DNA of 64,000 nt from an uncultured Flavobacteriaceae bacterium. Its GTDB lineage: Bacteria > Bacteroidota > Bacteroidia > Flavobacteriales > Flavobacteriaceae. The notes under the pieces were generated by a model. It was not told the DNA's origin, did not search any database, and saw nothing but the letters and a program-made list of their open reading frames with translations. Below, one piece after another: positions 3,877 through 64,000 of the stretch. The DNA is taken from assembly GCA_943789365.1 (NCBI GenBank), contig CALSTV010000001.1, positions 682,001 to 746,000 of the forward strand. The letters are read 5' to 3'. Within the stretch, counting starts at the first letter, position 1; every line of letters begins with the position of its first letter. Made by a program: the position numbers and the translations under genes.

Positions 3877-5583
3877 ATGAATAAAGCGCTTATGTTAACA
3901 TCCCTTTGTTTACTCTCTTTTTCTCTGAGTGCTCAAACTGAAAAGGACAGTATCAATACGGAAATCATAAATGTTGTCAGCTCTTATAAGCCTACTATTT
4001 CAGACGCCTTTAAATCAAAAGATCAACCTGTCATAGAAAGAAGCGATACCGAGAAACAGCAATTAGAATACCATATAGTGTCGAAGCCTATTCGATCTGT
4101 TTTTAAGCCAAATCCTGGAGGGTATCGATCTGCAAAATTGGAAAATAAAGCGAATCGTTATAACAACTACCTCAAGTTAGGTTTGGGAAACTACGGTACT
4201 CCCTTAGTGGATGGTTTCTTATACAAACAAAAAGAGGAGCATGAATTCCAATTTTTTCTATACAACAGATCTTCCAGCGGAGGCATTGACGGTTTGCAAT
4301 TAGATGACAATTACCTCACTACAAAGCTGGCACTTGATTATAAAAACACACAACAAAATTTCAACTGGGAAGCAGGAGTTGGGTATAATCGAGATATCAT
4401 AAACTGGTATGGAATTCCATTTGAATATGACCAAATCGTAATTGATGGTACTGAGGAAAAACAGACCTATAACCAATTTATTTTGAACGGAGCCATACAT
4501 TTTAACCAAGGACATTTTAAAGACATACGAGCTTCTATGAGCTCCTTTTCCGACGGTTTTGATAGCAGTGAAATGGATTTAAAATTTGGAACTACTATCG
4601 AATTTCCCTTAAGGTCAAATAAAATTGTCACCGCTGTCAACCTTGATATACTCAACGGGAATTTTAAAAACGATTACAACAATACAACAGAAATAAATTA
4701 CGGATATTTTAGGTTTGGCACTGCTGCCATTTACCCAATTCAAAAAGAAAATATGTTTTTTTCGATTGGAGCAAAAGTAATTTTCAATAGCGATCTAGAA
4801 AATGACACGAGTAAATTCTATATCTACCCAGATTTAAAAATTGACTTTGTTGTTGTCGATGAAATATTTAATATTTATGGAGGTATTAACGGTGGGCTTA
4901 ACCAAAACTCCTACAGAAGTATAACCAGACTGAATCCATTTGTTTCACCTACTTTACTTATCAAACCTACTGACAATTCGTTTACAGCATATACCGGATT
5001 AAAAGGGAAATTATCATCGCGAATCGATTACACCATAAAAGCTAGCTATTCTACAGAAAATGACAAACTGTTGTTTCGTTCCAATCAAAACCAAACAGAT
5101 GGTACTACTGTGGTAACGCAAGGGTATACAGCTGGAAATTCATTTTACACACTGTATGACAATGTAAGCACGTTCGGTTTATTCGGTCAAATAAATGCTG
5201 AATTTTCAGACCAATTGGCTGCCGGAGCCTCATTACAAATCAATTCGTATGCAATGGATACTGAGGCAGAAGCGTGGAACCTCCCGCCTTATAATGCCAT
5301 GCTATACGCATCGTATAGCTATAAAAAGTGGAATACCAAAGCTGAACTATTTTCAAAAGGAAAAAGACAGGAACTACAAGTAGATAGCAATTTAACAGAA
5401 CTCCCCATTGAATTGGATGCCTTTCTAGATCTAAATTTAAGTACTCATTATAAAATAAATTCAAAATGGAATGCATTTTTGGATTTGAACAATATACTCA
5501 ATAGCAATTATGAGGTATATACACAATATCAAGTACAAGGATTTCAGGTAATGATTGGTGCTACCTATCATTTCGATTTTTAA
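3877..5583 (+). CDS. TonB-dependent receptor-like outer-membrane barrel
   Basis: The protein has about 568 residues. The reading frame opens at 3817, but the ATG at 3877 is followed directly by a signal peptide (LTSLCLLSFSLSAQ), so it is the likely start. Alternating hydrophobic strands run to a terminal aromatic segment (MIGATYHFDF), as expected for a barrel recognised by BAM. It is shorter than classical TonB receptors and I see no clear plug domain; the N-terminus carries VSSYKPTISDAFKSK. Related proteins are usually annotated as TonB-dependent receptor. It follows the TPR gene closely and probably shares its transcript. The substrate is unknown. Confidence 0.75.
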   Translation: MNKALMLTSLCLLSFSLSAQTEKDSINTEIINVVSSYKPTISDAFKSKDQPVIERSDTEKQQLEYHIVSKPIRSVFKPNPGGYRSAKLENKANRYNNYLKLGLGNYGTPLVDGFLYKQKEEHEFQFFLYNRSSSGGIDGLQLDDNYLTTKLALDYKNTQQNFNWEAGVGYNRDIINWYGIPFEYDQIVIDGTEEKQTYNQFILNGAIHFNQGHFKDIRASMSSFSDGFDSSEMDLKFGTTIEFPLRSNKIVTAVNLDILNGNFKNDYNNTTEINYGYFRFGTAAIYPIQKENMFFSIGAKVIFNSDLENDTSKFYIYPDLKIDFVVVDEIFNIYGGINGGLNQNSYRSITRLNPFVSPTLLIKPTDNSFTAYTGLKGKLSSRIDYTIKASYSTENDKLLFRSNQNQTDGTTVVTQGYTAGNSFYTLYDNVSTFGLFGQINAEFSDQLAAGASLQINSYAMDTEAEAWNLPPYNAMLYASYSYKKWNTKAELFSKGKRQELQVDSNLTELPIELDAFLDLNLSTHYKINSKWNAFLDLNNILNSNYEVYTQYQVQGFQVMIGATYHFDF

Positions 5584-52088: not shown

Positions 52089-52547
52089 CTATTTATTATA
52101 AGGGGGATACATCTGTATATCCTTCATTACTTCCGTAGGAGGGTAAGTTATTTCATAGTCCAACATTTGTATATCTTCAATACTCAGATCATAACGTTTT
52201 AGCACCATATAATCTGTCCTAACCTCCTCCCAAGTATACTTTGCCAATGTATCGGAATGAAAAAAATAAAAAGAAAGTGTATCGGATGGAATTTCTTCAA
52301 ATTTACTCTCCCAAGACCTCGATCCCCCCGTAGAAGTACCAGTAGAAGGCAGTATATCCCCAAAACTAACAAATACATCGTTTTCTTTATGTAATGTTGT
52401 ATCTGGGTACGCATGAAGATACGAATGAGGAAAAGCACTAAAAAAACTAACTTTATGCTCAGAATTATTGAGAATTCTAATCATATAGAAGGTTTCACCG
52501 CACTGAGAAACTAATAAACAAGTAATTAAATAAATAAACGTTTTCAT
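52089..52547 (-). CDS. Lipoprotein, probable immunity protein of the last zincin tip
   Basis: This 152-residue lipoprotein (IYLITCLLVSQCGE, lipobox V-S-Q-C) starts with MIRILNNSEHKVSF and ends with a block VLKRYDLSIEDIQMLDYEITYPP that I have seen in small Bacteroidota lipoproteins next to polymorphic toxins. It lies 96 bp downstream of the HEYGH zincin tip. Immunity to that tip is inferred from position and from its lipidated, periplasm-facing location. Confidence 0.7.
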   Translation of the reverse strand: MKTFIYLITCLLVSQCGETFYMIRILNNSEHKVSFFSAFPHSYLHAYPDTTLHKENDVFVSFGDILPSTGTSTGGSRSWESKFEEIPSDTLSFYFFHSDTLAKYTWEEVRTDYMVLKRYDLSIEDIQMLDYEITYPPTEVMKDIQMYPPYNK

Positions 52548-52643: not shown

Positions 52644-53495
52644 TTAATAGAAACGCGGGTAATCACGATAAGGTGGCTCAAATATTCTCCAATCCACCCC
52701 ATATCTCTCAAAATATTTCGCCGCTAGTCGATTAGCTCTTAATTCTACCCAAAATACATCATGAGTATCTAAGCGCGTACCTGGTATATGTTCGCTATGA
52801 CTCGCACTCATTGCACTCGGAATCCCTATCTGAGTCAAATAAGAAAGCCCTAAATGCTGGCTGTCGACATAATGTCCATATTCATGCATATACAATGGGT
52901 TGCTCAATACATAGTCGCTAAAATCTCCCGCTACCTCCCCTCTATTGTTGATAAAAATAAAACTCCCTAATGAGGTGCTTGGCCCCTCACTGTTCTCATT
53001 CGTTGCAAAAGTGGCACCATCAAAATAATCGACCCTGTCTACATTTCCTTTTGAATTTTGCCATTGCAACCAGGCACTTCCTAAATTACTTTGTACCATT
53101 TCCCAAGTAAACCTACTCAATATCTGTCCAAAATTACCTTGAAAATTTCCTAAGAAAATTTTATTGGCATTGTGTAAAGGCTTCCAATTATCTTCAAATA
53201 TTCCTTGGTACAAACCATTGGAATAACTGGCTATGGTAGCCATTACATTGAGTGCTATTGAAACTGGAATTGCCACAACTGTAATCGCCACATCAAGAAC
53301 AAATTTACCTGCAGGTTTGAGTACATCATTCCAGAACCATTTGATAAACTCCCCACTAGGGTCCACATACTTTAAAGGATTGTTCCAAACATAGCCATAG
53401 CGGTTGTAACTCTGCGTATTAAACGGGTCTTGTATATAGTTATCCGGTGATAAAAACCTGCCCAGTTTTGGATTTCTTCGGCACTCTTGAGCTAC
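52644..53495 (-). CDS. Orphan Rhs tip with HEYGH zincin domain (tip G)
   Basis: The open frame starts inside the Rhs core junction ([20 protein letters not shown], then [13 protein letters not shown] and [12 protein letters not shown]). The nearest candidate start is a GTG at 53366 within VDPSGEF, giving 240 residues. A hydrophobic stretch (VAITVVAIPVSIALNVMATI) follows, then the zinc motif HEYGHYVD (about residues 161-168) and a possible third ligand in WVELRANRLAA. It lacks the Rhs YD repeats and an ATG, so it looks like a silent tip cassette. The 152-residue lipoprotein follows. Confidence 0.75.
   Translation of the reverse strand, partial: VAQECRRNPKLGRFLSPDNYIQDPFNTQSYNRYGYVWNNPLKYVDPSGEFIKWFWNDVLKPAGKFVLDVAITVVAIPVSIALNVMATIASYSNGLYQGIFEDNWKPLHNANKIFLGNFQGNFGQILSRFTWEMVQSNLGSAWLQWQNSKGNVDRVDYFDGATFATNENSEGPSTSLGSFIFINNRGEVAGDFSDYVLSNPLYMHEYGHYVDSQHLGLSYLTQIGIPSAMSASHSEHIPGTRLDTHDVFWVELRANRLAAKYFERYGVDWRIFEPPYRDYPRFY
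53346..53495 (-). repeat. Rhs core-tip junction repeat, copy 1 (150 bp)
   Basis: It encodes 50 residues from VAQECRR to DPSGEF, nearly identical to copy 3 (60523-60672) and, in its second two-thirds, to copies 2 and 4. It begins directly at the stop of the small membrane ORF upstream. Confidence 0.85.
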
Positions 53496-53635: not shown

Positions 53636-53853
53636 AATTAAAATTGTTAAATTTCATCTGATAAATCGTATCCAAATTTTCACTTTCTCGAATAATTCTA
53701 ACTTGCAATTCTCCGCTTTTTTTTATGATTGAATCTCCTACTTGTATAAAATTGTAAGCTTCCCTTAATTAGAACTGTTTGATTTTCCAAATATATACTT
53801 TTTTACGTTTTAAAATAAATTGGTTTATCTTCATTATAAATATTTAAACCAAT

Positions 53854-54699
53854 CTATTTTAAAATGAGCCCAGCGGCAGCGACGCGTTTTTTTTCGGCGT
53901 ACTTAATTGGTGGTATTTTACCTAAAGCATCATGTGGGCGGTAATGATTATAGTCATTCATCCAAATTTGAGTTTGCGCTCTTACTTGATCTAAATTTTC
54001 AAAAATGTATTTATTCAAAACACCTCGCCTATAACTTCCATTAAATCTTTCTATAAAAGCATTTTGAGTGGGTTTACCTGGTTGTATATATTTAAAGTCT
54101 ATTTCGTGCATAGTACTCCATTGAGATGTTATGTTTGCTATGAATTCTGGTCCGTTATCCATTCTGATGCGCTTTGGCTTACCTCTTTTATGTATCAAAT
54201 GATTCAGGACCCAAAGGATGCGATTACTAGGCAAAGAATAATCTATCTCTATAAAAAGGATTTCTCTATTATAATCATCAATAACATTAAAACCTCTAAA
54301 GCGTCTACTGTTGTCTAATACATCGGTAACAAAATCCATACTCCATGTATGGTTTAATTCTTTAGGAACCTCCAAAGGTTCTTTTACGCGTGCTGGCAGT
54401 CTCTTTTTTGCCTTTCTACGCAAAGACAACCCTAAGGATTTATAAACTCGGTATACTCGTTTATGATTCCATGGCTTTCCTTCATTGCGCAAACGATTAT
54501 AAGCTTTCCAAAACCCTTCTTCTGAGTGTTGTTCTGCCTTTTCTTTTAAAGCCGATTCAATTTCTGAATCCTCTTTGACTAATGGCTGGTAATAATAAAC
54601 ACTTTTACTCAGATTTAAAATACGGCACGCCCTACTTATGCCATAATCAATAAACTCTTTGACCAGAAGCCGTTTCAGGTAGGGCTTTATAGCTTTTTT
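53854..54699 (-). CDS. IS3-family transposase OrfB, copy 2
   Basis: The product is identical in sequence to the OrfB of copy 1, with the same DDE residues (WSMDFVTDV, RMDNGPEF, AFIERFNGSYRR). It is read by -1 frameshift from orfA through the slippery A-AAA-AAG at 54693-54699. Confidence 0.92.
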   Translation of the reverse strand, partial: KKAIKPYLKRLLVKEFIDYGISRACRILNLSKSVYYYQPLVKEDSEIESALKEKAEQHSEEGFWKAYNRLRNEGKPWNHKRVYRVYKSLGLSLRRKAKKRLPARVKEPLEVPKELNHTWSMDFVTDVLDNSRRFRGFNVIDDYNREILFIEIDYSLPSNRILWVLNHLIHKRGKPKRIRMDNGPEFIANITSQWSTMHEIDFKYIQPGKPTQNAFIERFNGSYRRGVLNKYIFENLDQVRAQTQIWMNDYNHYRPHDALGKIPPIKYAEKKRVAAAGLILK

Positions 54700-54953
54700 T
54701 CAATGATCTCTTTTGCTAGCTGATGATCTAAAGCCAAACTTGAATACATTTGTTTGAGTCTACGATTCTCCTCTTCTAAAGTTTTTAGCTTTTTAAGCTC
54801 TTTAGAATTCATACCTGCATACTTAGAACGCCACTTATAAAAGGTAGCAGAACTAATACCATGCGCTCTGGAAATATCTGAAATAGATTTCCCGTGATCA
54901 AACTCCTTTAGAATAGAAGCTATTTGTTGTGGACTAAATTTACTTTTTCTCAT
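54687..54953 (-). CDS. IS3-family transposase OrfA, copy 2
   Basis: This 88-residue protein is identical to copy 1 OrfA: a helix-turn-helix followed by a zipper-like coiled coil. It ends in the slippery heptamer leading to orfB. Confidence 0.92.
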   Translation of the reverse strand: MRKSKFSPQQIASILKEFDHGKSISDISRAHGISSATFYKWRSKYAGMNSKELKKLKTLEEENRRLKQMYSSLALDHQLAKEIIEKKL

Positions 54954-55308
54954 AATTACTGTTTAAAGTTAAGATTATTTTTCTACTTATAAACAGTTCG
55001 GTTTTTGGGGAAGCTTACAAAATCATAAAGTCCGCTTACTTCCAAATCCATTGAAATTGTTGTCTTTATATTATAAATCTCCAATAAGGTTATATATTCA
55101 TAATATCGACTGTCCATATATTTATCAAGAACTCTTCCTTTATAAGTGTTTCTTTTATACATTTTGACGACTTCTATATAATCCTCATCGCTGTACTCCC
55201 TGGTTTTAATAAACCACACCCCTCCTATCACAATTAAGATAGCTAATATTGCTTTCAGAATTACCACTGTATTCAACTTATTTTCTAACATATCATCACA
55301 CGTTTTGA

Positions 55309-56151
55309 CTACCTATTTCCTGAAACATAGGTATTGGTTCTCCAATTTACGTATTCAACGGGAGAGCCAACCCCCAAAGAAAATGTCCAAATATAAAAAT
55401 TGGAAGGATCATTCGTTTGAGAGCGATTGTCCGTTCCATAAGCTCCTCCAAAAGCTCCTATACCACCACTAGTCTCAAATCCACCTTCCCTTATAGAAAA
55501 CCTGTCTATTCGATTTGGATTATTAGGAGTCTTATAAACATCAAAGGTTTCCACTGAAATTCCTCCTGCAATACCAGATTCTAATGTGTATTTTGTAGTA
55601 GCATAAAATGAAAACCCATTTGAATCCTCCACAACTCCAAAATCTACTCCAATTCCATATGCTAATTTTTTTATGATTTGGATTGGAAATGCTACTTCTA
55701 TACTAACTCCAATACCTTGTACAACTTCTTCTTTTAAATAAGGTTTTATATATGTATTCCCATCTCCCCAACCTCCAGAATCCCTATCCAAAGGATTCCC
55801 AAAATCAACATCCCAATCTACTGTTGGACCAATAGGCAAAGAATTGCTCGTTCCTGTGGGCGTAATAGTGGGTTGTACACTAATATTCATCCCATTCTGG
55901 TCAAAATTTCCTTGGGTAGAAAAGCCGAGAGCAGGTACCTCATCCCAACTCGATGGATTCCAGTTCCAATTTCCGCTGTCGTCTTTGTTGTCATGGGCAC
56001 CTTTTAGATAACTAAATGCTGCCGCTACCAAAGTTGAAATAAACCATTCTCCACTGGGGTCATTGTATGATAAGGGATTGTTCCAAACATAACCATAGCG
56101 GTTATAACTTTGCGTATTAAACGGGTCTTGTATATAATTATCCGGTGATAA
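55309..56151 (-). CDS. Orphan Rhs tip of unknown fold (tip F)
   Basis: The frame opens after a TAG with [11 protein letters not shown] and [20 protein letters not shown], then continues as a tip of about 240 residues. The tip is rich in Gly, Asn and aromatic residues and strand-like (GVSIEVAFPIQIIKKLAYGI, YATTKYTLESGIAGGISVE, GAFGGAYGTDNRS), ending NWRTNTYVSGNR. I recognise no catalytic motif. There is no ATG near the start. The membrane gene downstream, now split by the IS, is its likely immunity partner. Confidence 0.65.
   Translation of the reverse strand, partial: LSPDNYIQDPFNTQSYNRYGYVWNNPLSYNDPSGEWFISTLVAAAFSYLKGAHDNKDDSGNWNWNPSSWDEVPALGFSTQGNFDQNGMNISVQPTITPTGTSNSLPIGPTVDWDVDFGNPLDRDSGGWGDGNTYIKPYLKEEVVQGIGVSIEVAFPIQIIKKLAYGIGVDFGVVEDSNGFSFYATTKYTLESGIAGGISVETFDVYKTPNNPNRIDRFSIREGGFETSGGIGAFGGAYGTDNRSQTNDPSNFYIWTFSLGVGSPVEYVNWRTNTYVSGNR
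56044..56151 (-). repeat. Rhs core-tip junction repeat, copy 2 (truncated, 108 bp)
   Basis: It encodes ILSPDNY to DPSGEW. The 5' third present in copies 1 and 3 is missing. The break point is the same as in copy 4, and the upstream flank is the same direct repeat. Confidence 0.8.
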
Positions 56152-57014
56152 AATCTAAGTTATCATCAACTAATTTATATTCTACGGTTGGTACAATCGA
56201 TTTTTTAATCATTCTCTAAATCATATTCAAACAAATAACTATATTCATTCTTCCCAACCTTCATAATCAAATTTAAAGTGTCATTTATTATTGAATTTTT
56301 AAATTTGTTTTCAGCTATTCTTCCTTCTTTAGAAAATATTAATTCAAAATCTAAACTGTCTTTTGGCTGTAGACTTAAAATGATATGATTATTTATTAAT
56401 TTCTTCTTTTTTGTTTCAAACATTATTGTTTCTTCAAATTTATTTGAACCTCTATTAACTACATTTGCACCCAGTAATTGATATTCAAATACTTTGGACA
56501 ATAGTTCAAATGAAATACCTTTTATCATAACACCATCATCTAATTTGTTTTTAATTCTAATCCTACAACAAAGAATTACTCTATTCTTTGGAAGGTGAAG
56601 AGCCGAAATATCCCCCATAAACTTTAAAGAATTATTTAAAATTTCTACCGAGTGTTTTACCGGTAAATAATTATAATAATGTGGAGAGCCTAATGGACAA
56701 CCATATAAAACAATAAGCATTAAATACATATATCTATATTTCATTTTAATTGTATTTTACATTGTACAACATTTGGTTTGCTTCATATTCATTGTATCCT
56801 TTAGCACTATAGGGATCTATGTAAAGAGAAAAAGTATTTATAATTTGTTCATAAAAACCTCTCGCCTGAAACCTAGCCCAACCTTGCTCTCTTACTTGAA
56901 TAATATGACCATATTCATGACCAAAAGTATCCGAATTTGTATTGTTAAAAGTGGCAACGCTATTCCCCCATGTGACTTCTCTCTTATACATTGGTCCAAA
57001 TAAAGAGGATATTC
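56152..57014 (-). repeat. Long direct repeat, left copy (about 0.86 kb)
   Basis: It matches 63114-63976 at an offset of 6962 bp. Both copies encode the same 179-residue lipoprotein and the same 92-residue zincin fragment without a residue difference. The junction copies on the left side differ at a few bases, so the repeat ends near the junction. Confidence 0.85.
56205..56744 (-). CDS. Lipoprotein, probable immunity protein of a zincin tip (copy in left repeat)
   Basis: This 179-residue lipoprotein (YLMLIVLYGCPLGSP, lipobox L-Y-G-C) is mostly beta-strand (IILSLQPKDSLDFELIFSKE, LNLIMKVGKNEYSYLFEYD). Its C-terminal half resembles the 193-residue product of 57078-57659 (LLPPNNRIEIFAVFREES), so the two are distant relatives. 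It starts 1 bp after the truncated zincin. An identical copy lies at 63167-63706. Confidence 0.72.
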   Translation of the reverse strand: MKYRYMYLMLIVLYGCPLGSPHYYNYLPVKHSVEILNNSLKFMGDISALHLPKNRVILCCRIRIKNKLDDGVMIKGISFELLSKVFEYQLLGANVVNRGSNKFEETIMFETKKKKLINNHIILSLQPKDSLDFELIFSKEGRIAENKFKNSIINDTLNLIMKVGKNEYSYLFEYDLEND

Positions 57015-57024
57015 CTTGATACAA
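56746..57024 (-). pseudogene. 5'-truncated zincin tip with alternative C-terminus (tip E)
   Basis: It shares about 60 residues with zincin tip D (SSLFGPMYKREVTWGNSV, HEYGHIIQVREQGWARFQ), including the HEYGH zinc site. After GFYEQ it switches to a different end (INTFSLYIDPYSAKGYNEYE). The only in-frame start near it is a TTG at 57024. Upstream the frame is open but lacks the Gly/Ala-rich region, so it is a 5'-truncated fragment. The 179-residue lipoprotein follows it. Confidence 0.7.
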
Positions 57025-57077
57025 TCCTCCTTTTCTCCATGCAACTTTGTTGTGTAATAAACTACACCTTCTTAAAA

Positions 57078-57659
57078 TTAACGAGGTACAAGATAGTATT
57101 CATTTAAAAAATTATTTATTCTCATTCTGAAACACAACGTATCATTCTTATTCATTTCATTAAATTTGTCATTCTTTATTTTGATTGATTCTTCCCTGAA
57201 GACTGCGAAAATTTCTATTCTGTTATTTGGAGGCAGTAAGATGTCATTTTTTAATTTATTTAATTTACCGTCCTTTCTTTCAAATAAATTAATAATCGAA
57301 TCTCTATTAAACTTATTTTGCGTTGATTTTATTTTTATAACTTGTTTAGCATTGTCTAACTTATAATTAAATTTTCTTGAAATGACCTCAATTAAGGAGA
57401 AATCAATTGCTACAAAGTTATTTGTTAAGTTATAAACATAAATATTGCTTACTAGGCTAATAGTATTCTTAAACCCTCCATTATGCATTGATGTTAGTGT
57501 GAAATCAATTTTTAAAGATTCATTTCTAATGTTATTATATTCTAGTTTTTGATAATGATTCCGAATAGGCGGAACAAAACAACTACTTTCCAAAAAGAAT
57601 AATATTATACAGATACTTATTTTTTCATACTTCAAACTTTTAATTACAGTTACCACCAT
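57078..57659 (-). CDS. Lipoprotein, probable immunity protein (relative of the 179-residue one)
   Basis: The protein has 193 residues with a lipoprotein signal (ICIILFFLESSCFVPP, lipobox E-S-S-C). Its C-terminal half matches the style of the 179-residue lipoprotein (PPNNRIEIFAVFREESIKI, NDTLCFRMRINNFLNEYYL). It lies 6 bp after the 147-residue lipoprotein gene in the same cassette as zincin tip D. A role in immunity is inferred. Confidence 0.68.
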   Translation of the reverse strand: MVVTVIKSLKYEKISICIILFFLESSCFVPPIRNHYQKLEYNNIRNESLKIDFTLTSMHNGGFKNTISLVSNIYVYNLTNNFVAIDFSLIEVISRKFNYKLDNAKQVIKIKSTQNKFNRDSIINLFERKDGKLNKLKNDILLPPNNRIEIFAVFREESIKIKNDKFNEMNKNDTLCFRMRINNFLNEYYLVPR

Positions 57660-57665
57660 ACAACA

Positions 57666-58109
57666 CTACTTAATCATGCTTAAAAATTTAATTTCTTTTG
57701 TACAGTTTTGATTAGTGATGATAATATTAATTGTATCATTTTTCAACAGATTAATTTGTCTTTCATTTAAGTCCTTAATAAATAAAACACTGCTATCCGA
57801 GACATGCTCTCTTTTTAATGCACCCAAACTATTCGATTTTATTGAAACCTCAGAATTTTCAAATATTTTCTTACTCTCTATTGAATCAAATTTAAAACTT
57901 GCAATTAATCTATTTTTCCTTTCAAAAGTAAATTGTTGAAAAACTCCTACTCGAATTCTAAAAAGGCGTCTTTCACTAGATTTTATTTCATAATATCCAT
58001 CTTTTAATATTGCTTTTTGCATTAAGGTATATTGTATGAATTTCCCAGCTGGACACCCTAATAACATGCTGCAAATAATCATAAAAAATATATTTCTAAA
58101 ATATTTCAT
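57666..58109 (-). CDS. Lipoprotein, probable immunity protein of zincin tip D
   Basis: This 147-residue lipoprotein (IFFMIICSMLLGCPAG, lipobox L-L-G-C) is strand-rich with no recognised domain. It starts 5 bp after the zincin tip D stop, the usual position of a cognate immunity gene. The mature protein would face the periplasm, where a secreted peptidase would act. Confidence 0.7.
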   Translation of the reverse strand: MKYFRNIFFMIICSMLLGCPAGKFIQYTLMQKAILKDGYYEIKSSERRLFRIRVGVFQQFTFERKNRLIASFKFDSIESKKIFENSEVSIKSNSLGALKREHVSDSSVLFIKDLNERQINLLKNDTINIIITNQNCTKEIKFLSMIK

Positions 58110-58114
58110 GATTT

Positions 58115-59095
58115 CTATATTTTAATGCAATTTCCATATCTATCAATGACAGTACACCCTCCTGTATTTTGTAACATAAATTCCGCAGAGCCCTCGTTAT
58201 AATTTCTTTTTAAATACGCCTTACTTCCCACAAATAATTGTTCATAAAAACCTCTAGCCTGAAACCTAGCCCAACCTTGCTCTCTTACTTGAATAATATG
58301 ACCATATTCATGACCAAAAGTATCCGAATTTGTATTGTTAAAAGTGGCAACGCTATTCCCCCATGTGACTTCTCTCTTATACATTGGTCCAAATAAAGAG
58401 GATATCCCTTGGTACATTCCTCCTTTTCTCCATGCAACTTTGTTTGTTGACATTTCACGAGCCCCAGCCATTTCGTTCGCATATTTTAATTGTCCATCCG
58501 TAGGTTTATAAGTAGCACCAAAAGCTGCAATCATAGCTATAGATTGCGAAGCCCCACCAATGGCGCCATTTCGCGCTCCATTTGCAATTCCTTTGCCTAT
58601 ATTTCTACCATCAACGGCAGCACCTACACCTCCTGAAATAGCTCCTCTTGCCGCTCCTTTTATCGTATTATGCCCTATTTCTCCAAAGGCGTTTTTTAAA
58701 TAACCTCCTTTGACTCCTTTCCAACTTTTCATTTTGCCTCCAATAGCTCCCCCCGCAAGTGCCCCGGCTATAGTTCCTAGAGTTACATCATCCCCCATTG
58801 CCAAACTTGTTCCAACTTGTGATGCAACCTCAGACATCATATTGAATGTGGCACTTTGTACAAATGAACTTGAAGATGAAAGCAAACTCCCCACACCACT
58901 TAATCCTCCAGAAATTGCTCCTCCGATAGCTCCATATAACATCGCTTGTCCTAAACCTGAAAAAGACCAATTTCCTGTTATTGCTGCCGAAACTGTATAT
59001 ACCGCTGCGGAGACTGCTGCCCCTACAATAGCTCCATATGCAATAGCTCCCAAAAGAGTAAGTATAAACTCCCCACCAGCAACCAAAATTGCCAA
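58115..59095 (-). CDS. Orphan Rhs-type tip with HEYGH zincin domain (tip D)
   Basis: The protein has 326 residues from a TTG at 59095; the frame opens right after the stop of the preceding gene. The N-terminal two-thirds is Gly/Ala-rich and hydrophobic (YGAIVGAAVSAAVYTVSAAI, GNWSFSGLGQAMLYGAIGGA), as often seen before toxin domains of Bacteroidota Rhs proteins. The C-terminal domain has the zinc motif HEYGHIIQ (about residues 262-269), and a possible third ligand is the Glu in NEGSAEFML. The normal DPSGEF junction is absent or degenerate (AILVAGGEF). Two lipoproteins follow. Confidence 0.7.
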   Translation of the reverse strand: MAILVAGGEFILTLLGAIAYGAIVGAAVSAAVYTVSAAITGNWSFSGLGQAMLYGAIGGAISGGLSGVGSLLSSSSSFVQSATFNMMSEVASQVGTSLAMGDDVTLGTIAGALAGGAIGGKMKSWKGVKGGYLKNAFGEIGHNTIKGAARGAISGGVGAAVDGRNIGKGIANGARNGAIGGASQSIAMIAAFGATYKPTDGQLKYANEMAGAREMSTNKVAWRKGGMYQGISSLFGPMYKREVTWGNSVATFNNTNSDTFGHEYGHIIQVREQGWARFQARGFYEQLFVGSKAYLKRNYNEGSAEFMLQNTGGCTVIDRYGNCIKI

Positions 59096-59122
59096 ATGGT
59101 TTATTCCCCTTAATTCTATTGT

Positions 59123-59622: not shown

Positions 59623-60672
59623 TTAGTTAAATAAGTCCATCGGATTAATATAATCATTACAATCGATTTTAATAGATAAATGAAGATGTGGAGCCGTAAT
59701 AATACCTGAACCATCTGAGACCCCCACAATCTGACCTCTAGAAACTAAGTCACCTACCGAAAGACTTGGTCTCGTATGAAAATAAGATCCTTCCAAACCA
59801 TTATTAAACTCAATCTTAATATAATTTCCTCCACTACCAGATCCTCCCGTATAAACCTTCGTAACTCTTCCTTTATAAAGTGAATAATTAGGATCACCTT
59901 TGTAACTTCTAAAATCTGTCCCTGTATGAGGTCGAGGCTTTCCTGAAACAGGGTGTACTCTATTCGGGTTATAGTCACTTGTTACTTTTCTATGTTTTGT
60001 AGGCCACGCAGGCTTTTCAACCGTTTCTACTCTTTCAACTAACTCCCCACCAGCACTCAAATCTGTTTCCATAGGTGACAATGCACCTGCTTTTGCTTTT
60101 ATATTTTGTACTGTTGGTTTTTTACCGCTCCAAAAGTCCGCATTATTTTTACTTGCCTTAATACCACCGGCAATACCGCCAACGGCACCTCCTATAAAAG
60201 CCCCTTGTACACCTGCCCTAAAACCGGCTGTAAGTACATCTCCTATGTTTCCTCCATTTGCCAAAGTATTCAAAGCCGCTCCTGTAAACCCTCCTGCAAA
60301 ACCAGAGGCGGCACCAACGGCTGCTCCTGACCAAAAACCAGCGACCGTAGTAGCTGCATTTCCAAAAAACGCCCCTCCAGCAACCAAATTACCAACACCG
60401 GCTCCAATACCAGCTGCTACACCTCCAATAACTGCCCCTAATAGTATTTCTCCAAAATTACCTCCTTTTATTGCTGCTGAAGTTCCTCCAATTATAGCAC
60501 CTATAATAACAGCAGTTAAAAAGAACTCCCCACTAGGATCTACATACTTTAAAGGATTGTTCCAAACATACCCATAGCGATTGTAACTCTGCGTATTAAA
60601 CGGGTCTTGTATATAGTTATCCGGTGATAAAAACCTGCCCAGCTTGGGGTTTCTTCGACACTCTTGAGCAAC
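59623..60672 (-). CDS. Orphan Rhs tip with M23 peptidoglycan endopeptidase domain (tip C)
   Basis: The frame runs from the junction ([20 protein letters not shown] ... [15 protein letters not shown]) through a Gly/Ala-rich hydrophobic region ([38 protein letters not shown]) to a C-terminal LytM/M23 domain. Zinc ligands are visible as HTGTDF (HxxxD) and HLHLS (HxH), with SYFHTRPSL and GSGIITAPH between. M23 enzymes cut peptide cross-bridges in peptidoglycan. No ATG precedes the domain; only a TTG at 60387 is near. A signal-peptide protein follows as likely immunity. Confidence 0.82.
60523..60672 (-). repeat. Rhs core-tip junction repeat, copy 3 (150 bp)
   Basis: It encodes the same 50 residues as copy 1 (VAQECRR to DPSGEF), with a few synonymous changes. 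The upstream break point is also the same, one codon before VAQE. Confidence 0.85.
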
Positions 60673-61520: not shown

Positions 61521-62068
61521 GGTAGATAGTGTTTGTCTTTTTCTCTAATAATTATTCTTGAACCATACTTTTTCAATTCTCCAAAAGTTTCAAATTCGAC
61601 GCCATCTTCTAAAAACTTTAAATTGTTAATTAGTGGTTTATCAAATTCATCGTTAAAAAAATCATTGTAATTTTCTTTATTATATAACACTTTAAAAAAA
61701 TCTAACTCTTTTGATTTTTGATAAACAACATTTCCGAAAACAGTAATATAATCTTTCTTTCCTCCTTGTGGAATACCAAAAACACTGTCTTTTATAAATA
61801 GAACAAATATCCCATCATATTCTTTTATTTCTTTAAAAATAATTGTAAAATATTTATTTGATTTGGATTCGTTTCTATGATTCCTTTTTATTTTTTTAGC
61901 AATTATTACTGATGGTATTACTTTTCCTCGTTCATTTACAATTTCAATTGAATCGTTTTTAAAAACAATTTTTCCAAAATCAAAATCTTTTTTGATTGCT
62001 ATCAATAAAAGGATAAATAAACAAACTACTGTACTTGTTATTATCATTCTTCTAACTTTAGTTCCCAT
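61517..62068 (-). CDS. Single-pass membrane protein, probable immunity protein of the NlpC/P60 tip
   Basis: The protein has 183 residues with one N-terminal membrane helix (IITSTVVCLFILLLIAI) and a soluble periplasmic part. It overlaps the tip stop by 11 bp, which suggests translational coupling, and is coupled in turn to the next gene. The cognate immunity role is inferred from this arrangement. Confidence 0.72.
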   Translation of the reverse strand: MGTKVRRMIITSTVVCLFILLLIAIKKDFDFGKIVFKNDSIEIVNERGKVIPSVIIAKKIKRNHRNESKSNKYFTIIFKEIKEYDGIFVLFIKDSVFGIPQGGKKDYITVFGNVVYQKSKELDFFKVLYNKENYNDFFNDEFDKPLINNLKFLEDGVEFETFGELKKYGSRIIIREKDKHYLP

Positions 62069-63113
62069 TATACCTCCTATAAATATACCCTTTATTGTTA
62101 GGGTAATTAGTTAAACTATAACTACTATGACCGAAATTACTAATTCTAACAGTTGTAGAATTTGCACCTATAGACTGAGAAGGACCAATCATAATTCCTA
62201 CATGACCTGTCGCCCCTACAAAATCTCCCCTTACGGACACAACATCACCTGCTTGTGGAGAGTCTACAAGATTCCAATCAGGTATATCATAATCAGGATC
62301 TGCCCATTGACTTGCGGTCGGGGGAGAAGTACCTTCTCCTCCAAATAACCTTGCCAACCTATTTCCGTTTGGAGTCCCTGGAGAAGCACCAGCTTCTTTT
62401 AACACATCATAAACAAATTTATTACATTTATAAGTACCAGCTCCAAAATTATCTTTTGATACATTTTTTGCCCACTCTTTTGAATTCTCATACTTTTTAG
62501 CAATTTTTGCAATAAGTGCCCTCCTATTTATCTCCTGTCTAATCCCATGCGCCACATGATTTAAACTCGCACTTATCAAGCCATTTCTTGCTCCATCCCA
62601 AAATTCTCCTCCGGAAAGCTCACTTGTAATGCCTCCTGCCAGTCCTGCACTGGCGATGGTGGCCGTGTCCCTCACAAATTTACTCGCATTTTTTAATAAA
62701 CCTTGGGTTCCTCCTCCAATAATTGCTCCCACAAAACCCGATGCCATGCCTTGTAGAAAATCACCTCCACTAAAAGCAGACATAAATCCTCCCGCATAGG
62801 CATGCATTATTCCTCTAGCAGCTACTTGAGCAACGCCATTCTGAATTCCCTGTGTAATGGTACCGATTCCATTTGCAAGTCCTCCTCCAATTGCCCCAAT
62901 CAATGCAGCTCTTCCCGCCCCTTCGAAAAAGGGTCTGTCATTAATTGAATTAACAATTCCATTGGTCGCAACACTTATCAATGCACCCACCAACATGGAT
63001 ATTAAGAACTCCCCACTAGGGTCCACATACTTTAATGGATTGTTCCAAACATACCCATAGCGGTTATAACTTTGCGTATTAAACGGATCTTGTATATAGT
63101 TATCCGGTGATAA
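62058..63113 (-). CDS. Orphan Rhs tip with NlpC/P60-like cysteine peptidase domain (tip B)
   Basis: After the junction ([11 protein letters not shown] ... [19 protein letters not shown]) comes a Gly/Ala-rich hydrophobic region (RAALIGAIGGGLANGIGT). The C-terminal peptidase domain has a candidate nucleophile Cys in GTYKCNKFVYDVL (about residue 201 from the GTG at 63026) and a His in GATGHVGIMIG (about 275), in the order Cys-His of NlpC/P60 or CHAP amidases. Such enzymes cleave peptidoglycan stem peptides. There is no ATG start; a GTG lies in VDPSGEF. A membrane protein overlaps its stop by 11 bp. Confidence 0.78.
   Translation of the reverse strand, partial: LSPDNYIQDPFNTQSYNRYGYVWNNPLKYVDPSGEFLISMLVGALISVATNGIVNSINDRPFFEGAGRAALIGAIGGGLANGIGTITQGIQNGVAQVAARGIMHAYAGGFMSAFSGGDFLQGMASGFVGAIIGGGTQGLLKNASKFVRDTATIASAGLAGGITSELSGGEFWDGARNGLISASLNHVAHGIRQEINRRALIAKIAKKYENSKEWAKNVSKDNFGAGTYKCNKFVYDVLKEAGASPGTPNGNRLARLFGGEGTSPPTASQWADPDYDIPDWNLVDSPQAGDVVSVRGDFVGATGHVGIMIGPSQSIGANSTTVRISNFGHSSYSLTNYPNNKGYIYRRYNGN
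63006..63113 (-). repeat. Rhs core-tip junction repeat, copy 4 (truncated, 108 bp)
   Basis: It encodes ILSPDNY to DPSGEF with the same 5' break as copy 2 (preceded by TAG), but it leads into the NlpC/P60 tip instead of tip F. Confidence 0.8.
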
Positions 63114-63976
63114 AATCTAAGTTATCATCAACTAATTTATATTCTACGGTTGGTACAATCGATTTTTTAATCATTCTCTAAATCATATTCAAACAAATAA
63201 CTATATTCATTCTTCCCAACCTTCATAATCAAATTTAAAGTGTCATTTATTATTGAATTTTTAAATTTGTTTTCAGCTATTCTTCCTTCTTTAGAAAATA
63301 TTAATTCAAAATCTAAACTGTCTTTTGGCTGTAGACTTAAAATGATATGATTATTTATTAATTTCTTCTTTTTTGTTTCAAACATTATTGTTTCTTCAAA
63401 TTTATTTGAACCTCTATTAACTACATTTGCACCCAGTAATTGATATTCAAATACTTTGGACAATAGTTCAAATGAAATACCTTTTATCATAACACCATCA
63501 TCTAATTTGTTTTTAATTCTAATCCTACAACAAAGAATTACTCTATTCTTTGGAAGGTGAAGAGCCGAAATATCCCCCATAAACTTTAAAGAATTATTTA
63601 AAATTTCTACCGAGTGTTTTACCGGTAAATAATTATAATAATGTGGAGAGCCTAATGGACAACCATATAAAACAATAAGCATTAAATACATATATCTATA
63701 TTTCATTTTAATTGTATTTTACATTGTACAACATTTGGTTTGCTTCATATTCATTGTATCCTTTAGCACTATAGGGATCTATGTAAAGAGAAAAAGTATT
63801 TATAATTTGTTCATAAAAACCTCTCGCCTGAAACCTAGCCCAACCTTGCTCTCTTACTTGAATAATATGACCATATTCATGACCAAAAGTATCCGAATTT
63901 GTATTGTTAAAAGTGGCAACGCTATTCCCCCATGTGACTTCTCTCTTATACATTGGTCCAAATAAAGAGGATATCC
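63114..63976 (-). repeat. Long direct repeat, right copy (about 0.86 kb)
   Basis: It matches 56152-57014 at an offset of 6962 bp. Near its right end a few bases differ (ATATCCCTTGGTAC here, ATATTCCTTGATAC on the left). The window ends 24 bp later, so its full length is not known. Confidence 0.85.
63167..63706 (-). CDS. Lipoprotein, probable immunity protein of a zincin tip (copy in right repeat)
   Basis: The product is identical over all 179 residues to that of 56205-56744 (lipobox L-Y-G-C). It starts 1 bp after the zincin fragment to its right and is followed by junction copy 4. The absence of any change between copies points to recent duplication or gene conversion. Confidence 0.72.
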   Translation of the reverse strand: MKYRYMYLMLIVLYGCPLGSPHYYNYLPVKHSVEILNNSLKFMGDISALHLPKNRVILCCRIRIKNKLDDGVMIKGISFELLSKVFEYQLLGANVVNRGSNKFEETIMFETKKKKLINNHIILSLQPKDSLDFELIFSKEGRIAENKFKNSIINDTLNLIMKVGKNEYSYLFEYDLEND

Positions 63977-64000
63977 CTTGGTACAATCCTCCTTTTCTCC
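63708..64000 (-). CDS. Zincin tip, same alternative C-terminus, cut by window edge (tip A)
   Basis: The 92 residues visible from the TTG at 63986 are identical to tip E, with the HEYGHIIQ zinc motif and the end YNEYEANQMLYN. The frame stays open to the window edge, so whether this copy has the full Gly/Ala-rich region and Rhs core cannot be seen. It could be the tip of an intact Rhs gene beyond 64000. Confidence 0.65.
   Translation of the reverse strand, partial: RKGGLYQGISSLFGPMYKREVTWGNSVATFNNTNSDTFGHEYGHIIQVREQGWARFQARGFYEQIINTFSLYIDPYSAKGYNEYEANQMLYNVKYN

Follow-up and report, generated by a model that had tools for sequence, protein, structure and literature searches.

Exchange of the toxic tips of Rhs and CDI proteins is usually described at the border between the delivery core and the toxin. 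The locus examined here raises the question of whether such an exchange can also be anchored inside the catalytic domain of the toxin, with a gene for the matching immunity protein moving alongside the exchanged part. The window, by which we mean the whole stretch of 64,000 nucleotides that was analysed, corresponds to C1:682001-746000 of the 3.7-Mb genome of an uncultured Flavobacteriaceae bacterium, and all features discussed lie on its minus strand.

The Rhs gene and its array of orphan tips

The last open reading frame of the window is the tip (tip A) of a complete 2166-aa Rhs protein, the gene of which runs past the window to C1:752208. A domain search of this protein found a signal-like N-terminus followed by SpvB, FG-GAP, RHS_repeat, YD repeat and Rhs_assc_core, that is, the delivery gene with Rhs/YD repeats and Rhs_assc_core ahead of a variable tip that is typical of Rhs polymorphic toxins. 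Behind tip A stands a series of orphan tips with probable immunity genes, and these downstream toxin/immunity cassettes share core ends, as in other Rhs systems, with core fragments at 53347, 56071, 60524 and 63007. The Rhs core (L007 3708-10208) was absent from all five other sampled genomes of the genus, suggesting that the locus was probably acquired horizontally or is often lost. The features of the array are as follows.

63708-64000 (the rest beyond the window), minus strand: tip A, C-terminal part of the 2166-aa Rhs protein (ORF list, neighbouring DNA)
63708-63806, minus strand: end A within tip A
63867-63881, minus strand: HEYGH codons of tip A
within 63825-63975, minus strand: predicted join of D-type and E-type sequence in tip A (SNP comparison)
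63167-63706, minus strand: 179-aa lipoprotein, family II, presumed immunity protein of tip A (ORF list, profiles)
63007-63115, minus strand: core fragment after the tip A lipoprotein, 3' homology arm in common with 56071-56153 (self-comparison)
62058-63026, minus strand: NlpC/P60-like orphan tip (domain search)
59623-60387, minus strand: M23 peptidase orphan tip (domain search)
58115-59095, minus strand: tip D, orphan, 326 aa, no core upstream (ORF list, self-comparison)
58238-59079, minus strand: body of tip D, 99% identical to the body of tip A
58115-58237, minus strand: end D
58298-58312, minus strand: HEYGH codons of tip D
57666-58109, minus strand: 147-aa lipoprotein (l147), family I, presumed immunity protein of tip D (ORF list, profiles)
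57078-57659, minus strand: 193-aa lipoprotein (l193), family II (ORF list, profiles)
56746-57024, minus strand: headless tip E, 92 aa (ORF list)
56845-57055, minus strand: zinc box on the 5' side of headless tip E (NKVAWRKGG..HEYGH..GFYEQ), repeated directly at 58238-58447 and 63807-64016
56905-56919, minus strand: HEYGH codons of headless tip E
56746-56844, minus strand: end A of headless tip E, with the same sequence as 63708-63806
56205-56744, minus strand: 179-aa lipoprotein (l179), family II, identical copy of 63167-63706
56071-56153, minus strand: core fragment closing the E module, 4 mismatches to 63033-63115
55309-56031, minus strand: other orphan tip, no assigned type
52644-53366, minus strand: second, different zincin tip

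The orphan part of interest thus reads zinc box, end D, l147, l193, zinc box, end A, l179, in which l193 is presumed to be either a second immunity gene for tip D or the relic of another displaced module. The body of tip D begins at the core-tip boundary (GGGGAGTTTATAC) and is fused to a stretch reading ILVAG (window 59060-59110); ILVAG resembles the glycine-rich start of the M23 tip (VAGGAFF), suggesting an illegitimate join at this point. At the start of the zinc box, a Shine-Dalgarno-like AAAAGGAGGA lies directly ahead of an in-frame TTG in E (57024-57035) or ATG in D (58417-58430), which might allow translation of headless tip E into 92 aa. Further along the array, the second zincin tip carries HEYGHYVDSQHLG and WVELRANRLAAKYF and adjoins a 152-aa probable lipoprotein (52089-52547); this tip had no Pfam match, and its end fell outside the profile of D/A-type ends. 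An IS3-family element (53790-55020, with transposase ORFs at 53854-54492 and 54687-54953) sits at the end of a 102-aa membrane-protein ORF (54983-55291) behind the tip at 55309-56031, and it appears to have split the probable immunity gene of that tip.

The shared zinc box and the variable ends

The first-pass annotation had described tips D and E/A as near-identical through HEYGH to GFYEQ and then switching, directly after the zinc site and inside the toxin domain, to unrelated ends. The open reading frames are as it described, and the three proteins are identical from KREVTWG to YEQ (47/47 residues, including HEYGH and GFYEQ). In the self-comparison, D and E have 216 bp of zinc box in common at 97% (56840-57055 / 58234-58447), and the DNA similarity of D to E and A ceases after the CAA codon of YEQ, bearing out the position of the switch. 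Tips D and A share the entire tip body and not the zinc site alone (844 bp at 99.2%; 58234-59076 / 63802-64645), while A and E share 985 bp at 99.3% (56071-57055 / 63033-64016), covering the lipoprotein gene and the following core fragment. Headless tip E is the 3' half of A together with the 179-aa lipoprotein of A, and since the body of D is that of A, tip A reads as the body of D carrying the end of E.

A three-way comparison of SNPs found D-type bases in tip A at 63981 and 63975 and an E-type base at 63825. The 149 bases between 63975 and 63825 are identical and include the HEYGH codons, indicating that the join lies within the 150 bp that encode HEYGH. One SNP counts against a join: at 63986, A agrees with E and D differs, which needs a D-specific mutation. 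Between tips A and E, an uninterrupted 875 bp of identity runs from the interior of the zinc box to the downstream core fragment. The flanks of this tract are diverged, with 3 mismatches within the initial ~43 columns of the alignment and 4 within the final ~67, and the longest identical run was reached in 0 of 200,000 permutations. At the rate seen between the bodies of A and D (6 differences in 844 bp), about 6 differences would be expected in the tract, suggesting that A and E exchanged sequence after D and A had split. As read from the alignment, this pattern is the trace expected if the zinc box and the core fragment served as arms for gene conversion or a double crossover. The zinc boxes of D and E are 99% alike, compared with 72% for the homologous boxes D' and E' in a genome of a second genus (G678), indicating that the boxes were homogenised recently in this lineage.

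The ends did not prove to be unrelated. A profile built from the ten non-A ends only, with a background of 5000 shuffles per end, assigned 25.3 bits to the A end and 21.9 bits to the E' end, each above all 5000 shuffles, and the ends have an (N)ExxA motif in common; the D and A ends are diverged homologues. In all 14 sequences, H45, E46, H49 and Q52 of the active helix, E88 and the A of (N)ExxA are invariant, and the loop preceding (N)ExxA differs in length between ends. In zincins with HExxH and a downstream glutamate, this glutamate is the likely third zinc ligand, and the E of NExxA in the end is probably that ligand. The variable end would then belong to the predicted active site and not be an add-on to it, and an exchange would swap one ligand together with the end while leaving the enzyme motif intact.

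HExxHxxQ with a downstream E, the signature of PVC-metallopeptidase and eCIS_core (PF13699), was found in the 14 tip sequences. The PVC-metallopeptidase class, which available passages of PMC3482391 characterise by HExxHxxQ-E, further resembles the tips in its setting among polymorphic toxin systems, with an SpvB/FG-GAP/Rhs architecture and toxin-immunity cassettes. The Pfam model eCIS_core, however, matched 3 of the 14 family members weakly (best E 0.0058) and none of the window's own tips, so that we do not assign the tip family to PF13699; neither the tips nor the lipoproteins had a credible Pfam or NCBIfam family above cut-off, and PHROGs gave none either. A PDB profile search matched only the region around the GHEF segment, weakly (E 0.13) and to a decarboxylase, a match taken as chance. 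AlphaFold2 models of both end types were poor (pLDDT 37 and 43), and in them only the order of helices fits a small zincin. From its conserved motif, the tip domain is predicted to be an active metallopeptidase.

Probable displacement and return of half-tips with their lipoproteins

We consider it probable that toxin-immunity modules at this locus have been displaced and reactivated with the help of sequence homology, and that the join falls inside the catalytic domain. The zincin tip would be a two-part module, made of a shared body with the zinc box (REVTWG..HExxHxxQ..YEQ) and an exchangeable end, whose last 32-40 residues, with the probable third zinc ligand, would travel alongside one or two lipoprotein genes. 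The zinc box would act as an internal homology arm: an incoming unit of zinc box, end and lipoprotein would join at the box, and the old half-tip and its lipoprotein would be pushed downstream as a headless orphan. If the zinc box is the anchor, the displacement model predicts that the new end and its lipoprotein come first, followed by a further zinc box and then by the old end with its own lipoprotein, which is the order found here. The orphan end and its lipoprotein would later return to the active gene, either through homologous recombination of one direct repeat with another or through gene conversion that has the zinc box and the downstream core fragment as its limits; tip A would most simply be the product of such a return, which is the direction in which we infer the exchange to have run. 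A more speculative extension, which we hold only tentatively, is that the zinc-site DNA may be a standing recombination box that combines a constant catalytic half with a library of exchangeable C-terminal halves and their lipoproteins, the direct repeats around the headless half then forming a reversible switch of warhead specificity in which the enzyme class is kept.

Relatives were sought by domain profiles (A1, A4) in the Chryseobacterium genus and in the rest of the order Flavobacteriales. They proved sparse, being present in 9 of the 173 genomes from the Chryseobacterium genus and in a few others of the order, and no tip relatives were found in plasmids or viral contigs; a profile match in G185 was a primase and was discarded. 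Headless tips occur in four genera, represented by the source genome (E), G678 (E'), G1443 and G1388, and begin at REVTWG or up to about 20 codons upstream, soon after the stop codon of a lipoprotein gene. Those of G678 (L034 7329-7586), G1443 (L067 about 1418-1545) and G1388 (L068 reverse complement 4563-4862) follow the stop of a family-I lipoprotein, and two of these three start at DNA for KREVTWG or RREVTWG. This layout is not a single accident, whether one event or several gave rise to it in the four genera. As displacement would leave them, the source genome, G678 and G1388 retain a partial tip with a lipoprotein, and G1443 retains the box only. G678 has the layout of the source genome, with a D'-type tip, a family-I lipoprotein, the E' half-tip and a family-II lipoprotein. 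The ends of E and E' are closely similar (SFSLYIDPYTTKGY vs TFSLYIDPYSAKGY), and pN/pS between them was 0.17/0.69 in the zinc box and 0.25/0.71 in the end, synonymous changes being near-saturated and non-synonymous ones few, a purifying signal that could stem from time spent within active genes. In G1225, the same first half, interrupted by two stop codons, continues from the HE codons into another end, which was found nowhere else among 166 congeneric genomes.

It is possible, although we find it doubtful, that E is plain debris, a truncated duplicate of the 3' part of the A gene that landed behind D and has no role as donor or reserve. E has no body, core or proper start, and the related half-tips in G1443 and G1225 have decayed through frameshifts or stops, so that many half-tips may be relics and not reserves. 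However, the confinement of A/E identity to a tract between diverged homologous flanks is not expected from a simple duplication, and the recurrence of headless tips at the same place in four genera, behind a lipoprotein gene and starting in or just upstream of the zinc box, also speaks against debris. Nor is the E/A type inactive debris in all relatives, the outcome to which the first-pass annotation had tied the fate of its idea: tip A belongs to an intact full-length gene, and the E-type half-tips of G678 and G1388 are open frames.

Displacement at the zinc box, the reading that we favour, involves the lipoprotein genes as well, which had been noted to differ behind D and E/A and proposed to change alongside the end. 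Leave-one-out profiles separated two distinct lipoprotein families and a small third group. Family I holds l147, the 144-aa protein of G678 and those of G1158, G1153 and G1112, together with G1443, G1105 and the 157-aa protein of G1388; family II holds l179, l193, the 176-aa protein of G678, L014 and G199. Tip D is trailed by both families (l147, then l193) and A/E by family II (l179), and the change of family with the end inside the source genome is repeated inside G678, where D' goes with family I and E' with family II. Across ten toxin/lipoprotein pairs, lipoprotein family was not significantly related to the similarity of the ends (permutation p 0.18) or of the catalytic halves (p 0.34), so that the immunity reading rests on gene order. 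It is plausible that the end sets immunity specificity, in which case the end would contact its lipoprotein. The M23 and NlpC/P60-like neighbour tips and the lipoprotein-like signals on the partners suggest that the zincin acts in the periplasm, where the lipoproteins would act as its immunity proteins.

The exchange might instead alter the substrate or the properties of the enzyme, the lipoprotein riding along on the cassette without recognising the end. The probable zinc ligand in the end, the varying loop ahead of it and G199, a clear exception that combines a GG-type end with a family-II lipoprotein, would agree with this, but no end has lost the catalytic motif, and in two genomes a change of end goes with a change of lipoprotein family, and we regard this reading as unlikely. 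It seems to us quite improbable that the lipoproteins are delivery parts or unrelated passengers of the array: their function is assigned from position only, none having a family match, yet in the examined relatives a short lipoprotein from one of a few families comes directly after the tip, even where a full-length Rhs gene has no array behind it, and the neighbouring M23 and NlpC/P60-like tips are expected to act on the cell wall, where immunity by lipoproteins makes sense. Divergence of D and A by point mutation and selection at an immunity interface, with no recombination, would suit homologous ends but is hardly credible and already contradicted, since the 844 bp of 99% DNA identity end sharply at a single codon, in the stretch where the long A/E identity sets in.

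Comparison with known exchange systems

The proposed displacement and return of a toxin end has a counterpart in Salmonella LT2, for which available passages of Koskiniemi et al. (PMC3967940) present evidence that a displaced toxin end can return to the main rhs gene: an orphan fragment without start signals lies behind that gene and regains expression by homologous recombination. In both systems, a downstream toxin/immunity fragment would be able to rejoin the main gene. According to the same passages, main gene and orphan in Salmonella share an arm of 522 bp (95% identity), and a conserved DPxGL motif marks the start of the variable toxin, whereas headless tip E has no core upstream and its arm is zinc-site DNA inside the toxin domain. 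An orphan of the Salmonella type begins either in a remnant of the core or at the border of core and tip (PMC3967940), but there is no core between the stop of l193 and E; tip D, unlike E, does start at the core-tip boundary.

For the type VI secretion system of Vibrio cholerae, passages of Kirchberger et al. (PMC5361080) describe how the arrival of an effector-immunity module dislodges the resident effector or effector domain and moves its 3' end and immunity gene back, with homology-facilitated illegitimate recombination discussed as a route. There an effector or an effector domain is replaced, whereas in the zincin tips the join falls inside one catalytic domain and the relic keeps HExxH. 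Tandem EsaG/TipC immunity genes (passages of PMC9484751) are alike in that conserved blocks inside genes drive recombination between paralogues, but in that case the immunity genes recombine, while here the toxin gene does so and the immunity gene would be carried along. Tde5, in passages of PMC13392607, is countered by two immunity proteins of distinct structure, a role that l147 and l193 may share for D; dual protection was shown for this T6SS nuclease, whereas for D the pairing rests on gene position.

In literature searches on toxin-domain recombination, which covered open-access passages, no description of an anchor inside a catalytic domain was found. The present case differs from the systems above in that the exchanged unit is part of a toxin domain with its presumed immunity gene, anchored inside the catalytic domain. 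Between these natural recombinants, only the final third of a single catalytic domain and the adjoining lipoprotein genes vary, and A and D, with the same body, are ready-made matched pairs for asking which part of a toxin an immunity protein reads and whether half-toxin relics serve as reserves. Headless HExxH fragments in such arrays should not be dismissed as pseudogenes without comparison.

Finally, different tips in G678 (L034 ~4645, 8945, 10046) and G1225 (L054 ~1661, 5602, 8174, 9575) share pre-toxin DNA of about 150-230 bp at 80-87%, which, alongside the core end and the zinc site, would provide a further homology box.
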